Assembly (NCBI GenBank): GCA_937930845.1
Contig: CALHBJ010000001.1
Span: 744,001-808,000, forward strand
Direction of reading: 5' to 3'
Origin: an uncultured Rhizobiaceae group bacterium
GTDB taxonomy: Bacteria; Pseudomonadota; Alphaproteobacteria; Rhizobiales; Rhizobiaceae
DNA length: 64,000 nucleotides
The notes under the pieces were generated by a model. The model was given only the letters and a program-made list of their open reading frames with translations. It had not been told where the DNA came from and did no database searches. Of this stretch, positions 7,868 to 40,413 are shown one piece after another. Within the stretch, counting starts at the first letter, position 1; each line of letters begins with the position of its first letter. The position numbers and the translations under genes are program-made.

Positions 7868-8635
7868 ATGCTGAAGAAGTTTATCCAGACTTTCGCCGCC
7901 ACCGCCATTTTGTGCACCGGTATGATCGAAGCCAATGCCGGGAAGCGTTATGCCACGCCTCCGCCATTGACCTTAAGCCCTGATTTATCGTCCCCCTGGA
8001 CATTGCAGGTCTCTCCCCCAAAAAGGCGCGCCAGCCGGGCGGAGCGCAAACAGGCCAAACGGCCCGCAGGACTGCGGCGCTTGCGTAAACAGACCTACAA
8101 TGGTGTTAGAACCCGAAAGCGCAAACAATCTTCCATTGTAACAGCAACTTATCGCCGCCCGGCCAAACCGTCGATCGTGCAGCCCAGCCTGCGGCCAAAA
8201 GTGGTTTCCTATTCCGGAGAGGCCAGCCCGGGTACAGTGATCATCAATACGATTGAGCGCCGCCTCTATCTGGTTCTCCCAAATGGCAAGGCCCGCAAAT
8301 ATGCCGTGGGTGTGGGGAAACCTGGATTCGAATGGGCAGGCTCACACAAAGTGACCCGCAAAACGGAATGGCCATCGTGGACCCCGCCCAAGGAAATGAT
8401 CGTTCGCGAACGTGCCAAGGGCCGCGAATTACCCAATTTCATGCCCGGTGGACCTGAAAATCCCATGGGCGCACGCGCGCTCTATCTGGGTTCGACTCTG
8501 TATCGTATTCACGGGACAAATCAGGACTGGAGCATTGGCAAAGCCGTATCTTCAGGCTGTATTCGCATGCGCAATGTGGATGTGATGGACCTCTATGACC
8601 GGGTGCCTGTTGGGGCCCGTGTTAAGGTAATTTGA
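7868..8635 (+). CDS. L,D-transpeptidase (YkuD domain)
   Basis: Periplasmic enzyme that cross-links peptidoglycan stem peptides or anchors proteins to the wall. The 255-residue protein starts with a signal peptide (MLKKFIQTFAATAILCTGMIEANA). A basic Arg/Lys-rich linker runs from about residue 50 to 105, and a YkuD domain from about 125 to the end. The catalytic motif is visible: H of RIHGTNQ, then SSGCIRMRN with nucleophile Cys about 16 residues later. The serine before GC replaces the more common His of S/T-H-G-C. Single-gene unit. Confidence 0.9.
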   Translation: MLKKFIQTFAATAILCTGMIEANAGKRYATPPPLTLSPDLSSPWTLQVSPPKRRASRAERKQAKRPAGLRRLRKQTYNGVRTRKRKQSSIVTATYRRPAKPSIVQPSLRPKVVSYSGEASPGTVIINTIERRLYLVLPNGKARKYAVGVGKPGFEWAGSHKVTRKTEWPSWTPPKEMIVRERAKGRELPNFMPGGPENPMGARALYLGSTLYRIHGTNQDWSIGKAVSSGCIRMRNVDVMDLYDRVPVGARVKVI

Positions 8636-36909: not shown

Positions 36910-38199
36910 TTAAACCGGCAAGCGTTTTTCAACGCGGATGCTGCTGTCTTTGCCTGGCACAAACACCACCGCAAAATTTTCCTGTGGCGCTGGTTTCTCA
37001 CGTGACAATTGCAGATTGTTGGCGACTTCATCAATCATCGTTTCCAGTAATGTGGAGGACCAGATGGCGGCAATGCAGGCATGATGCCCAACGCCGAAGG
37101 GGCGATAAATTGATGGGGATACTTTCTGGGCAATGAAGCGGTGGGGGCGAAACTCGGTTGGGTTTTCAAAGTTCTCCGAGGTGTTGTGCCCTTCCCAATT
37201 GCACCAGCGCACATAGGTTTTGCGCGGGAATGTGAATCCCTCAAACGTGAAATCCCGCATCACTTCACGAATCATGAAACCACCGGAATGCAATCGGAGA
37301 ACTTCTTTAGCGGTTGCGCGTACCAACTCACGCCGGTCGGAGGGTTCGGTCGCAAATATCTGTGCAACCAATTCAGGGTGGTCGGCCAATTCGCTGATGC
37401 ACCATTGCCACATTACTGCAAATTCCAACCGGGCCGATTCAATGCTGAAAATGAGGTTGCCGAGAACCGTTTCGTCCCAGGTGTCATGCGACTTAAGGTG
37501 GCTCAAATCACTTTCCCGCGCCTGCTCCTCAGGGCGAAGATATGCCGGAAGCTGGCACACTAACTGGCGAAATTGCTGATATCGTTCTTTATATTCCGGG
37601 GTAATTCGACGCTTCCGGTCATGAACAATAAGCGCGTCATACGCGGTCTTTAACTGCATCATTTCATCTGTGTCCGGTTCCACCCCCAGGAACGCGGCAA
37701 ATACCAGATCATCTGCAAGTTTCGTCATAAGGTTCGCCACAACCTCAGCTGTCACAACGGGCCCTTGCCGCACTAGTTCGTCAAAACAGGATTTGAACAG
37801 CGACCGCGCAAATTCAGTGTTTTGACGACTGTTCATCGCCTGGATTCCCCCTGAGAGGATTTTGCGATAATGGGCGTGTGGTTTTCCGTCCATGCCCCGC
37901 ATGGCGCCTTTGGGAAAAATGGAAGCGTAATCGACCAAGGGCACTTTGAACCGGTTATCGTGGCGCTTGAGAAGCTCATTTCCCCGCAATTGGCCGTCGA
38001 CACAAATCATCACCTTGTTGTTCCACCACACTTTGTAGATGGGGCCATGCTTGCGTGCTTTTTGCTGGAAGTAGTCTTGTGAGTCCGTTCCGGAATTCAT
38101 TGGCTTGCGCAGTGAACCGGGCGGGAGGCGTTTGCGACACCGAAATGCTGCCAATTGAGCATGGAGAATTGCTGGAATTTTTGTGCCGCCAAAACGCAA
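36910..38199 (-). CDS. cytochrome P450-like protein 1 (putative peptide tailoring)
   Basis: A 429-residue cytosolic P450. Haem loop YRPFGVGHHACIA puts the ligand Cys at about residue 375; the usual Arg two before Cys is His. The ExxR motif is EVLR in AKEVLRLHSGG. In helix I the A-G-x-D/E-T-T oxygen-activation motif is absent (SIESARLEFAVMW). C-helix HAHYRKIL. The start is TTG 38199 with AAGGGAG about nine bases upstream; this gives nearly the same length as its paralogue at 38757. It is divergent from small peptide genes A and B. Function is unproven. Confidence 0.8.
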   Translation of the reverse strand: MRFGGTKIPAILHAQLAAFRCRKRLPPGSLRKPMNSGTDSQDYFQQKARKHGPIYKVWWNNKVMICVDGQLRGNELLKRHDNRFKVPLVDYASIFPKGAMRGMDGKPHAHYRKILSGGIQAMNSRQNTEFARSLFKSCFDELVRQGPVVTAEVVANLMTKLADDLVFAAFLGVEPDTDEMMQLKTAYDALIVHDRKRRITPEYKERYQQFRQLVCQLPAYLRPEEQARESDLSHLKSHDTWDETVLGNLIFSIESARLEFAVMWQWCISELADHPELVAQIFATEPSDRRELVRATAKEVLRLHSGGFMIREVMRDFTFEGFTFPRKTYVRWCNWEGHNTSENFENPTEFRPHRFIAQKVSPSIYRPFGVGHHACIAAIWSSTLLETMIDEVANNLQLSREKPAPQENFAVVFVPGKDSSIRVEKRLPV

Positions 38200-38276
38200 A
38201 GATCTTCACTCCCTTAGTCATTGCTTAACGTTAGTCACAACAAAAACGCTGCATAATCAATGGACGAGTGATTCAA

Positions 38277-38360
38277 ATGGTGGACAATTGGTATCATTTG
38301 GAACTATACAGTCCACTGGGGCACCTTAAAACTCATGTAGAAAACCTGCTTGGGTACTAA
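38277..38360 (+). CDS. possible 27-residue aromatic-rich peptide ORF
   Basis: ATG 38277 opens a 27-codon frame containing WYHLELYSPLGHLK and ending GY, unusually rich in Trp/Tyr. A GAGTG lies six bases before the ATG. It sits in the divergent promoter region of P450 1 and peptide A and may be chance; no leader-like MKKxYxxP is present. Confidence 0.2.
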   Translation: MVDNWYHLELYSPLGHLKTHVENLLGY

Positions 38361-38390
38361 AAAAGTAGTTTGTATGGATGGGGATGCATC

Positions 38391-38522
38391 ATGAAGAAAA
38401 CTTACCAAACTCCGGACTTTATTCGACAAAAAGCGCTTGGCGATATCACGGCCATTTACCAGTCACCCGCCAGTGGAATGACACTGACTTGGGTGAGACC
38501 TGTTGAAGAAGCTGGAGATTAA
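38391..38522 (+). CDS. putative RiPP-like precursor peptide A
   Basis: A 43-residue peptide. Start MKKTYQTPDF, then L16-G17-D18-I19-T20-A21; the C-terminal part has Y23, P26, W34 and an acidic EEAGD end. Y5-x2-P8 and T20 have the spacing of the YxxP...T leader of lasso-class precursors. GGGGA sits about seven bases upstream of ATG 38391. Peptide B starts six bases after the stop, so the two form an operon. The core may be what follows residue 21; that is inference. Conserved alignment with peptides B and C supports a real gene. Confidence 0.65.
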   Translation: MKKTYQTPDFIRQKALGDITAIYQSPASGMTLTWVRPVEEAGD

Positions 38523-38528
38523 TCGATC

Positions 38529-38651
38529 ATGAAAAAGCAATATGAAATGCCAATTTTGGCGCATAATGAACGTTTAAGCGACGTGGCGGCTAAGTTGACT
38601 GCCAGCGGCGTACCGATCCAGCATCGCTTTGTTGAGGTTGGAGAAGGCTAA
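38529..38651 (+). CDS. putative RiPP-like precursor peptide B
   Basis: A 40-residue peptide beginning MKKQYEMPIL with L16-S17-D18-V19-A20. The rest holds P29, H32, F34 and ends VEVGEG. It shares M1-K2-K3-x-Y5-x-x-P8, L16 and V/I19 with peptides A and C. A GGAG lies about eleven bases before the ATG. The A-B operon ends at a strong terminator (38683-38716). It converges on the second P450 gene. Confidence 0.65.
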   Translation: MKKQYEMPILAHNERLSDVAAKLTASGVPIQHRFVEVGEG

Positions 38652-38682
38652 GTGTTGTTAGGAATGCTTAGTCCAGAATTTT

Positions 38683-38716
38683 GGGGCCTGTGAATGTTAT
38701 TCGCAGGCCCCTTTTT
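38683..38716 (+). terminator. intrinsic terminator of the peptide A-B operon
   Basis: GGGGCCTGTGAAT (38683-38695), loop GTT, ATTCGCAGGCCCC (38699-38711) form a 13-pair stem with one G-U, followed by TTTTT (38712-38716). It lies 31 bases after peptide B and marks a discrete short transcript. Confidence 0.9.
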
Positions 38717-38756
38717 CGTTCAGGCAGGGTCTTTCACGTTGGATTTTTGAAGATAT

Positions 38757-40049
38757 TCAGGCTTTGCGCCGGTGCGTCCACCTGGTCGCGCTTTCATTAC
38801 CGGGTATGAAATCCACTTGGCGAATGGTCGGCTCTGCGCGGTGAACGCGCTCAATTTGAGCAGAATCAGCCAGTTCGCTGACAAACAGTTCCAACATGGC
38901 CTGCGCCCACCGACCGGCGATACACCCGTGATGGCCAAAGCCAAATGGCCGAAACACGCTGGGATCGTGTTCAGGGTTCAAGAAGCGTTCAAGATTGAAT
39001 GTTCTGGGATCTGCAAAATTTTCCGGATCATTATGCCCCTCCCAGTTGCAGAAATGGACATAGGCACCGCGCGGAAAGGTGAAGCTGGAAAACGTGAAGG
39101 ATTTGGTCACCTGGCGCAAAATGAAAGTTGCCTGGTGCAAACGCAATATTTCCATAACTGTCGCGCGGACAAGACTTTTCTTTTCATCCGCCGATGTGCA
39201 AGTGGCAATGCGCTCCAACACGTCCGGATGGTCAGCCAATTCTTCGATAGCCCACAGGAACAGGCCAAATATGTCGCCACGGGCTGCATCGACATTGAGT
39301 ATGAGGTTGCCCAGCACCGTTTCGTCCAGCAGATCATTGCCCGCAAAATGGGCCAGTTGGCTGGGTATTTCCTGAGAGTGAGGGTCGGTGCAGGCAGGCA
39401 GGCTGGTGACGATAGTCCTGATCTCGTCAAATACCTTTTTTTGTTCAGTGCTAATATTTCGCTGAAGTTCATGCATCAGATAGTCTCGATACAATTCCCA
39501 TAGTTCATCATATTGGGGCTGATCAGGGCGGATGCCAAAGAATTGCAGAACAATGGAGCGATAGGAAAACCTTTGACCATGTTCGCGCAGGACAGTGCCG
39601 TTTACAGGGCCATCTGTGGCGACGATATCATTGATGATTTGCTTCACTTCGGCGCTCAGTTCCGCCGCATGTCGCGAAACCGGCACGGAGGCAATACCCT
39701 CGGCCAATATCTTGCGATAATGGCTGTGCATTTCGCCTTCCATGCCGCGCAGCGCACCGCCTTTGAACAACAAGGAATAGTTCAGTAATGGTGCCCGCAT
39801 GGTAGAGGAATGTTCCCGCAATAATTGGGCACCCAAATCCTGCCCATCGACACAGATCAGAACTCTGGTTCTGAACCACATCTTGTAAATGGGACCATAG
39901 GTCTTCTTCAGGTCTTGCAGAGTAGTAAGCTTGAAACTGTCGACGCTAACAGCATTATTCAAACTGCCGGGCGGCAAAGGGCGCACCGTTTTCAGTCTGC
40001 GGGCATTTGCGCGAAACAGTGCTGAAAGCTTTTTCTTCGTATAAATCAT
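38757..40049 (-). CDS. cytochrome P450-like protein 2 (putative peptide tailoring)
   Basis: A 430-residue paralogue of the P450 at 36910. Haem loop FRPFGFGHHGCIAG has Cys at about residue 376, again with His-His where most P450s have x-Arg. ExxR is EILR in VMEILRLHQA. Helix I carries DAARGDIFGLF instead of AGxDTT. Shared blocks with P450 1 include LPPGSL, GPIYKxW, xxICVDGQ, HYRKIL and CNWEGHN. ATG 40049 has GGGGAG about five bases upstream and is preferred over 40070. It is divergent from peptide C. Confidence 0.82.
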   Translation of the reverse strand: MIYTKKKLSALFRANARRLKTVRPLPPGSLNNAVSVDSFKLTTLQDLKKTYGPIYKMWFRTRVLICVDGQDLGAQLLREHSSTMRAPLLNYSLLFKGGALRGMEGEMHSHYRKILAEGIASVPVSRHAAELSAEVKQIINDIVATDGPVNGTVLREHGQRFSYRSIVLQFFGIRPDQPQYDELWELYRDYLMHELQRNISTEQKKVFDEIRTIVTSLPACTDPHSQEIPSQLAHFAGNDLLDETVLGNLILNVDAARGDIFGLFLWAIEELADHPDVLERIATCTSADEKKSLVRATVMEILRLHQATFILRQVTKSFTFSSFTFPRGAYVHFCNWEGHNDPENFADPRTFNLERFLNPEHDPSVFRPFGFGHHGCIAGRWAQAMLELFVSELADSAQIERVHRAEPTIRQVDFIPGNESATRWTHRRKA

Positions 40050-40115
40050 CCAACTCCCCTGCACCCGCATTCAACAAGACAACGTTAACAAAGTTATTAA
40101 TCAGCGTAATCAGTG

Positions 40116-40131
40116 AATTGATATATCAATT
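40116..40131. promoter_or_regulatory. 16-base palindrome between P450 2 and peptide C
   Basis: AATTGATATATCAATT is a perfect palindrome in the 165-base divergent region. The corresponding region before peptide A has AATTGGTATC at 38286-38295, similar to the left half (AATTGRTAT). A shared regulator is possible but only weakly supported. Confidence 0.4.
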
Positions 40132-40214
40132 GTTCCATGTTAATTCGCTCACACGGGGCAAACATAATCGCAACAACTGCCTTTAAGTAGCAGTATTGAG
40201 TACCGGGGAATATG

Positions 40215-40340
40215 ATGAAAAAAGAATATATCAAGCCAGTGGCACTTTCGTCTGCCATGCTGGGTGCTGTGACCAGTCAGACGGTCGTTAGCGGCGAAAT
40301 GATGGATCAAGGCGTCAGCAATGGCCACTCAACTACTTAA
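40215..40340 (+). CDS. putative RiPP-like precursor peptide C
   Basis: A 41-residue peptide from ATG 40215 (ATG 40212 is also possible) beginning MKKEYIKPVA, then L16-G17-A18-V19-T20. The remainder is Ser/Thr/Gly-rich with M29-M30 and ends GHSTT. It aligns without gaps to peptides A and B at Y5, P8, L16 and I/V19. GGGGAA sits just upstream. It is followed by its own terminator at 40382-40413. Divergent from P450 2. Confidence 0.62.
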   Translation: MKKEYIKPVALSSAMLGAVTSQTVVSGEMMDQGVSNGHSTT

Positions 40341-40381
40341 GGTCTTCGTTGAAGGCTCATAGTTTGAGCTCATGATTTTGA

Positions 40382-40413
40382 AAAGCCATCGGGTTCGCCC
40401 GATGGCTTTTTTT
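40382..40413 (+). terminator. intrinsic terminator after peptide C
   Basis: AAAGCCATCGGG, UUCG tetraloop, CCCGATGGCTTT, then a run of T (40407-40413). It lies 41 bases after the peptide C stop. The region 40414-40715 holds a second, opposite terminator and one tiny frame, and no larger gene. Confidence 0.92.

Follow-up and report, generated by a model that had tools for sequence, protein, structure and literature searches.

A candidate cyclase-free lasso-leader peptide system with divergent cytochrome P450 genes in an uncultured Rhizobiaceae bacterium

The 64,000-nucleotide stretch analysed here, called the window, comes from an uncultured bacterium of the Rhizobiaceae (assembly GCA_937930845.1, contig CALHBJ010000001.1, positions 744,001 to 808,000) and carries, between positions 36,910 and 40,413, three very short genes (A, B and C) next to two cytochrome P450 genes. 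A first-pass annotation had proposed that the short genes encode precursors of ribosomally synthesized and post-translationally modified peptides (RiPPs) that have the YxxP leader of the lasso class and are paired with P450s, a proposal that probably holds. The question raised by this locus is which enzymes would convert such precursors, where these are encoded, and what the P450s would contribute. The best reading, to which we assign a probability of roughly 0.7, is that A, B and C serve as precursors in a linear RiPP system of the Hyphomicrobiales that uses a lasso-type leader but no cyclase, with a maturation cassette acting in trans from another contig (C10) and with the P450s as accessory tailoring enzymes that oxidize dedicated precursors.

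The elements of the locus are the following.

36910-38199, reverse strand: P450-1, with a TTG start; PF00067, 76.9 bits (Pfam cut-off 22.8); divergent from peptide A
38200-38390: divergent intergenic region between P450-1 and peptide A, 191 bp
38391-38522, forward strand: putative precursor peptide A, 43 aa, with SPASG in the core
38529-38651, forward strand: putative precursor peptide B, 40 aa, with TASG in the core
38683-38716, forward strand: intrinsic terminator of the A-B unit; hairpin at 38683-38711 with 13 pairs, and a T run
38757-40049, reverse strand: P450-2, with a possible ATG at 40070; PF00067, 90.2 bits (Pfam cut-off 22.8); divergent from peptide C
40050-40214: divergent intergenic region between P450-2 and peptide C, 165 bp
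40215-40340, forward strand: putative precursor peptide C, 41 aa, with an ATG also at 40212 and VVSG in the core
40380-40413, forward strand: intrinsic terminator of the C unit; hairpin and a T run

The reading frames proposed earlier for the three peptides, with their shared MKKxYxxP, are indeed open, and the two paralogous P450 genes were found to be each divergent from one peptide unit, as had been described. A and B form one unit and C a second one with its own terminator. The strength that had been claimed for both terminators was confirmed by folding: the A-B hairpin reaches -24.4 kcal/mol (z -7.06) and the C-unit hairpin -22.5 kcal/mol (z -6.39), and in each case 0 of 200 shuffled sequences were as strong.

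When the DNA pattern ATGAARAARNNNTAYNNNNNNCC, which stands for the leader MKKxYxxP, was run over the whole window genome (G000, 3.76 Mb, with the window on its contig C1), it gave 9 matches, and the reversed control gave none. Because of an in-frame stop inside the pattern, one match was dropped, leaving eight peptides on four contigs: A, B and C on C1, D on C13, E1 and E2 on C7, and F1 and F2 on C10, the last five being additional to those in the window. In these peptides MKKxYxxP is followed mostly by V/I-T/A-A near residue 21 and then by a variable core; the YxxP leader is present in 8/8, being part of the pattern used to find them. The consensus of 28 peptides is MKKxYEKPxxxKRxKLxxVTA. Other genomes were searched in a family sample of 199 and an order sample of 397, which overlap, and a genome was called peptide-positive if it had a peptide profile match at E<=0.01. 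This was the case for 10/199 family-sample genomes, i.e. nine besides the window genome, and the conservation beyond the strain on which the earlier proposal depended is thus present. The option that these are chance short open reading frames (ORFs) is rejected on the pattern control together with the profile matches in other genomes.

Contig C10 carries, within about 5 kb and adjoining F1 and F2, a cassette of five genes.

Contig C10: PqqD-type RiPP recognition element (RRE; B1), PF05402, 49.4 bits (cut-off 23.4)
Contig C10: B2 lasso leader peptidase, NF033537, 57.4 bits (cut-off 33)
Contig C10: HprK-like P-loop protein with an AESGTGKT motif
Contig C10: nucleotidyltransferase, NTP_transf_5, 81.3 bits
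Contig C10: formyltransferase, PF00551 (Formyl_trans_N), 54.4 bits

The cassette holds the only PF13471 match of the window genome and contains no Asn_synthase (PF00733) match. Its RRE stays under the cut-off of the lasso-specific PqqD model NF033530 (28.4 vs 70), and its HprK-like protein resembles relatives, one of which reaches TIGR04352 at E 3.7e-07. In the absence of a cyclase, protease or RRE gene beside A, B and C, the first-pass annotation had suggested either that the class is not that of lasso peptides or that the partners are unlinked; an RRE/B2 cassette without cyclase, accompanied by two sister peptides on another contig, agrees with both suggestions. The cassette with its kinase-like, nucleotidyltransferase and formyltransferase genes goes beyond what had been noticed before, as do the total of at least eight precursors and a third peptide/P450 pair, described below. 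Elsewhere in the window genome PqqD is matched three more times and NTP_transf_5 once more, at loci where neither B2 similarity nor an MKKxYxxP peptide was found. At one of these, on C1 (35-39 kb; L201:8182-11870), the second NTP_transf_5 ORF and a PqqD-like ORF have glycosyltransferase-like neighbours, judged by their N-termini only. The other two PqqD matches lie on C6 inside longer open frames (L202:1091-2386 and around 8008-8190), and a weak HprK-like stretch of 40 residues is present on the same contig (L202:4557-4676).

The association of the peptides with a leader peptidase recurs in other genomes. With B2 called at scores over the Pfam cut-off, it was present in 10/10 peptide-positive family-sample genomes vs 4/189 others (Fisher 5e-14), and in 16/16 vs 11/381 in the order sample (Fisher 1e-21); when all B2 matches at E<=0.001 are admitted regardless of cut-off, the other genomes rise to 12/189 and 16/381, respectively. 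Leaving out the window genome gives Fisher values of 7e-13 (family) and 1e-20 (order). A run of B1, B2, HprK-like and nucleotidyltransferase genes is found in all ten peptide-positive family genomes. The further content of the cassette varies: five of the ten (G151, G131, G025, G085 and G164) have an AMP-binding enzyme, a GNAT protein and an acyl carrier protein (ACP), two (G000 and G038) have the formyltransferase, and at the cassettes of G155, G073 and G177 neither the set nor the formyltransferase was seen. In the order sample, a relative of the formyltransferase lies beside three peptides in G240. The distance between B2 and the peptides varies as well, amounting to hundreds of kilobases or more for the listed peptides of G085, G240 and G580, with some peptides near B2 and others far off or on other contigs in G437 and G569. 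In G151 (L073:6355-13463) an array of ten peptide profile matches lies beside the B1-B2-HprK run, the AMP-binding enzyme, GNAT, ACP and NTP_transf_5 genes, which is possibly an acylated branch of the same class.

A recurring serine in the core is a second common feature. Ser-Gly occurs in 7 of the 8 own cores, where 1.7 are expected by core shuffling, and none of 5000 shuffles reached 7. For comparison, 66 leader-pattern peptides from 14 other genomes were used, including one from G177 that looks spurious but was retained. All 66 cores contain Ser or Thr and 60 contain Ser; SG is present in 18 (7.7 after shuffling, 1/5000) and S[GNDEQHR] in 41 (18.1 after shuffling, 0/5000). The recurring Ser-Gly is a candidate kinase site. 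In the Linear Polyphosphorylated Peptides (LPP) the kinase puts several phosphates on one core Ser, according to the available excerpts of the report (PMC13381572, Nat Commun 2026), and by analogy the same phosphorylation may take place in the MKKxYxxP peptides.

What the sequences themselves show is the leader family, the core Ser that recurs, the cassette with its genes, the joint occurrence of peptides and B2, and P450s adjoining peptides at three loci of the window genome and one of another genus. From these a maturation route can be envisaged in which the enzymatic steps, the cleavage and phosphorylation sites and the role of the P450s are all inferred. The PqqD-type RRE (B1) would bind the Y5xxP8 leader, the HprK-like kinase would phosphorylate the conserved core Ser, the NTP_transf_5 protein could extend this phosphate, and the formyltransferase might formylate the product or its appended group, while the B2 cysteine peptidase would cleave near V-T-A, at about residue 21. 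Each P450 encoded divergently from a precursor unit would oxidize the core of that unit, by which the P450-linked peptides A/B, C and D would gain an extra modification absent from their sisters E1, E2, F1 and F2. A wider proposition, for which we see even odds, is that this single trans-acting cassette serves all of the at least eight dispersed precursors, with subsets routed to their own divergent P450, and that diversity arises via plug-in modules of peptide and P450 at unrelated sites. In the congener G162, the genes that flank the window module are just 269 bp apart and the module is absent (L193:3760-4028), leaving an empty site; the flanking genes are a permease and a candidate acetoacetyl-CoA synthetase, a name that we presume. 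Both sampled congeners, G082 and G162, gave 0 peptide matches and 0 B2 matches, and no P450 match except one generic match of 42 bits.

A Pfam search detected ten P450 ORFs in the window genome, three of which belong to the family of P450-1 and P450-2. A profile built from these three gives them 761-777 bits, and the next match in the genome 43 bits. The third member, on C13, is 174 bp divergent from peptide D, the P450 having been found by the Pfam search and the peptide by the pattern search. All three family members of the window genome are thus 165-191 bp divergent from an MKKxYxxP peptide. A gene start placed at random would come to lie no more than 200 bp from any of the five peptide clusters with a probability of about 5e-4. 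The adjacency is also observed in another genus of the same family, in a different arrangement: in G038 a peptide MKRVYSKP... lies 296 bp downstream of a P450, followed by PqqD-like, B2, HprK-like, NTP_transf_5 and formyltransferase genes and two more peptides, all in 6 kb; a flavin amine oxidase (PF01593; L079:12081-13565; best NCBIfam model VioA, below cut-off) stands at the end of the run. The most serious alternative, which these observations make unlikely, is that the P450s belong to a separate pathway, for example a glycan-related one, and that their closeness to the peptides is incidental or regulatory. It draws on the order sample, where 8/397 genomes have a match to the P450 profile at E<=1e-20 and where four of the six other loci that were read adjoin glycosyltransferases and none adjoins an MKKxYxxP peptide. 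At the level of genomes, peptides and P450s do overlap in the same sample: 3/8 genomes with the P450 are peptide-positive vs 13/389 of the others (Fisher 0.003), and 2/7 if the window genome is left out (0.025). The first-pass annotation had regarded P450s that are kept without adjacent peptides as speaking against its proposal, and this is in part what was observed. Since the P450s recur without adjacent MKKxYxxP peptides, they are best considered accessory and not class-defining, and the earlier interpretation as a whole is partly supported.

The six loci are those of G437, G569, G500, G275 and G234, read up to 10 kb per side (4.9 kb before the contig start in G500), and of G309, read on its whole contig of 3.4 kb; the weakest match, in G516, had no MKKxYxxP peptide within flanks of 1.5 kb. 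The genomes G437 and G569 do contain peptide matches (9 and 15, respectively), located elsewhere and not beside the P450. In G275 the neighbours are a PhyH oxygenase and an ORF with a Hint domain. Two text-pattern matches near other P450s, neither starting with MKKxYxxP, were discounted: the G569 match is internal to the P450 gene, and the G234 match (MSTGRYNWP..) is 1.9 kb distant from the P450. In the family sample, 9/199 genomes pass the P450 profile at E<=1e-10, but seven of these matches are generic (42-58 bits), leaving G000 and G038. A contig database contained relatives only in Kaistia defluvii and one Hyphomicrobiales metagenome-assembled genome at 30% identity, with no MKKxYxxP peptide in the DNA retrieved; of 21 stretches in viral contigs that fit a pattern, none was confirmed as a P450 relative.

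Several points weigh against the proposed system. Besides the absence of adjacent MKKxYxxP peptides at the six other P450 loci and the glycosyltransferase neighbours at four of them (G437, G569, G500 and G309), the recurrence in G038 has its own weak points: the peptide next to the P450 was detected with a looser text pattern but missed by the profile at E<=0.01, whose two matches there are 4.4-4.8 kb away from the P450, and the PqqD-like and kinase matches are under curated cut-offs. A second P450 of G038 (C12, L080:8518-9663) has an in-frame TAG and is possibly a pseudogene, and the 18 kb examined there contain no peptide. The HprK-like protein on C10 has no Pfam match and matches TIGR04352 only weakly (E 0.0015). 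The penultimate leader Thr is present in A, C, D, F1 and F2 and missing in B, E1 and E2. The serine motifs SG and S[GNDEQHR] were picked after viewing the sequences, and with the looser [ST]G the level observed in the own cores was attained by 19/5000 shuffles. Finally, three genomes that contributed some of the rows of the peptide profile (A4), namely G000, G073 and G155, are themselves members of the order sample, and relatedness among sequences and genomes, along with the overlap between the two samples, makes the co-occurrence tests overstate independence.

It would also be conceivable that A, B and C are ordinary lasso peptides, with the cyclase encoded elsewhere in the genome and the P450s as lasso tailoring enzymes. 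The lasso-type leader, B1 and B2 are all there, and weak matches to the lasso_cyano model were obtained for the own peptides A (E 0.0059) and D (E 0.0056) and for a peptide of G177 (E 0.001), none of which reaches the 33-bit cut-off. An additional, separate B2 adjoins an Asn_synthase gene in G155 and G073, as in canonical lasso clusters. Nevertheless, the ten peptide-positive cassettes contain no PF00733 match, and the sole full-length Asn_synthase protein of the window genome (660 aa, on C8, with glycosyltransferase-like neighbours, judged by N-termini only) scores above the cut-off of the asparagine synthase model (458 bits vs 267) and below those of the lasso cyclase model (194 vs 525) and the XrtA amidotransferase model (545 vs 817). 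Two other PF00733 matches in this genome are short (25-30 bits). G131 and G164, which are 95% and 99% complete and have both peptides and cassette, have only short PF00733 matches (32.1 bits at best, in ORFs of 401-443 aa) that exceed the 21-bit cut-off without being full-length. If cleavage takes place after residue 21, the presumed site, an acceptor Asp/Glu at core positions 7-9 is present in only one of the eight own cores, that of C. The standard lasso reading was therefore rejected as the main one for lack of a cyclase, and we consider it quite improbable. More improbable still is a repeated family of regulatory or signalling peptides that are no RiPP precursors, for which the dispersed small transcription units and the position of E1/E2 next to pyrH might be cited, against peptides that track B2-bearing genomes, lie near RRE/B2 cassettes in several of them, and combine a conserved leader with variable cores.

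Among known systems, the LPPs are closest to the cyclase-free system proposed here, as judged from the excerpts available (PMC13381572). Shared features are a YxxP leader, a discrete RRE, an HprK-like kinase (a weak call in our case), an NTP transferase and the lack of a macrolactam cyclase; in LPP biosynthesis the RRE binds the YxxP leader, one core Ser is phosphorylated, and each cluster has one to three precursors. The same excerpts describe LPPs as restricted to Bacillota, with a leader YxxPxVLxHQxIxFETxxS, to which our consensus does not conform, that is cut by a SipW-like signal peptidase, whereas the cassettes found here carry B2 (no search for SipW-like proteins was made). The present system is found in Hyphomicrobiales and has in addition formyltransferase or AMP-ligase/ACP/GNAT genes, and P450s in two genera. 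Paeninodin-type lasso peptides, as presented in the same excerpts (PMC13381572), have the discrete RRE, B2, HprK-like kinase and nucleotidyltransferase in common with it, but differ by their cyclase and by WxxP in place of YxxP. Cyclase-free relatives as such were foreseen, since RRE-Finder yielded almost 8,000 discrete lasso RRE matches, only about 4,000 of which had a leader peptidase and cyclase, and some of these RREs may stem from uncharacterized RiPP classes; in the sections available, no class, precursor or P450 is given for those without cyclase (PMC7470986). A P450 that likewise acts on a RiPP precursor is ApyO of the aminopyruvatide pathway (excerpts of PMC11117315), but A-D lack the YLY motif of that system, and no MNIO or B12-rSAM gene was recognized in the ORF lists (no profile search was made). 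Among the matches listed in the open-licence PMC literature there was no description of this cyclase-free lasso-leader/P450 system, which is weak as a negative.

If the proposed system is real, linear kinase-modified lasso-leader RiPPs are not confined to Bacillota but occur in Alphaproteobacteria too, where another type of leader peptidase is used and P450 and formyl or acyl tailoring are added. It would also mean that precursors and tailoring genes can be located far from their maturation cassette, where cluster-based genome mining overlooks them. A direct test is feasible, with one small cassette and eight known cores, four of which (A-D) adjoin a P450.

The two window P450s are 37-38% identical, and both have the heme-ligand Cys motif FGxGHHxC (FGVGHHAC and FGFGHHGC). 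A Thr motif in the I helix is a usual P450 feature; it is missing here, with IFSIESAR and ILNVDAAR at the expected site. Small precursors combined with a P450 are also known from biarylitides and atropopeptides, a likeness by description. The top NCBIfam model for P450-1, P450-2 and one P450 of G038 is ApyO (NF050147), with scores of 54-66 bits (65.7 and 55.8 for the window P450s) that are far under the cut-off of 525. A PDB sequence search gave weak, generic P450 matches. A structure model of P450-2 made from four sequences (mean pLDDT 60.2) was set aside, being mute on the chemistry because it is weak and matched only generic P450s (TM about 0.5-0.6).

Concerning expression signals, a simple pattern scan picked up the A-B hairpin and missed that of C, and its terminator-like sites were not above shuffles (4 vs a mean of 5.9). 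Promoter-like sites were no commoner than in shuffles either (3 vs 4.1), so that promoters of the peptide units are not demonstrated. A TTGAKTACCGG stretch occurs 5' of C and D only and not of A, and no box shared by the three is claimed. On C7, E1 and E2 (L019:9608-9956) lie between pyrH (AA_kinase) and genes that we take to be tsf-rpsB, and are accompanied by a strong terminator of -30.7 kcal/mol.

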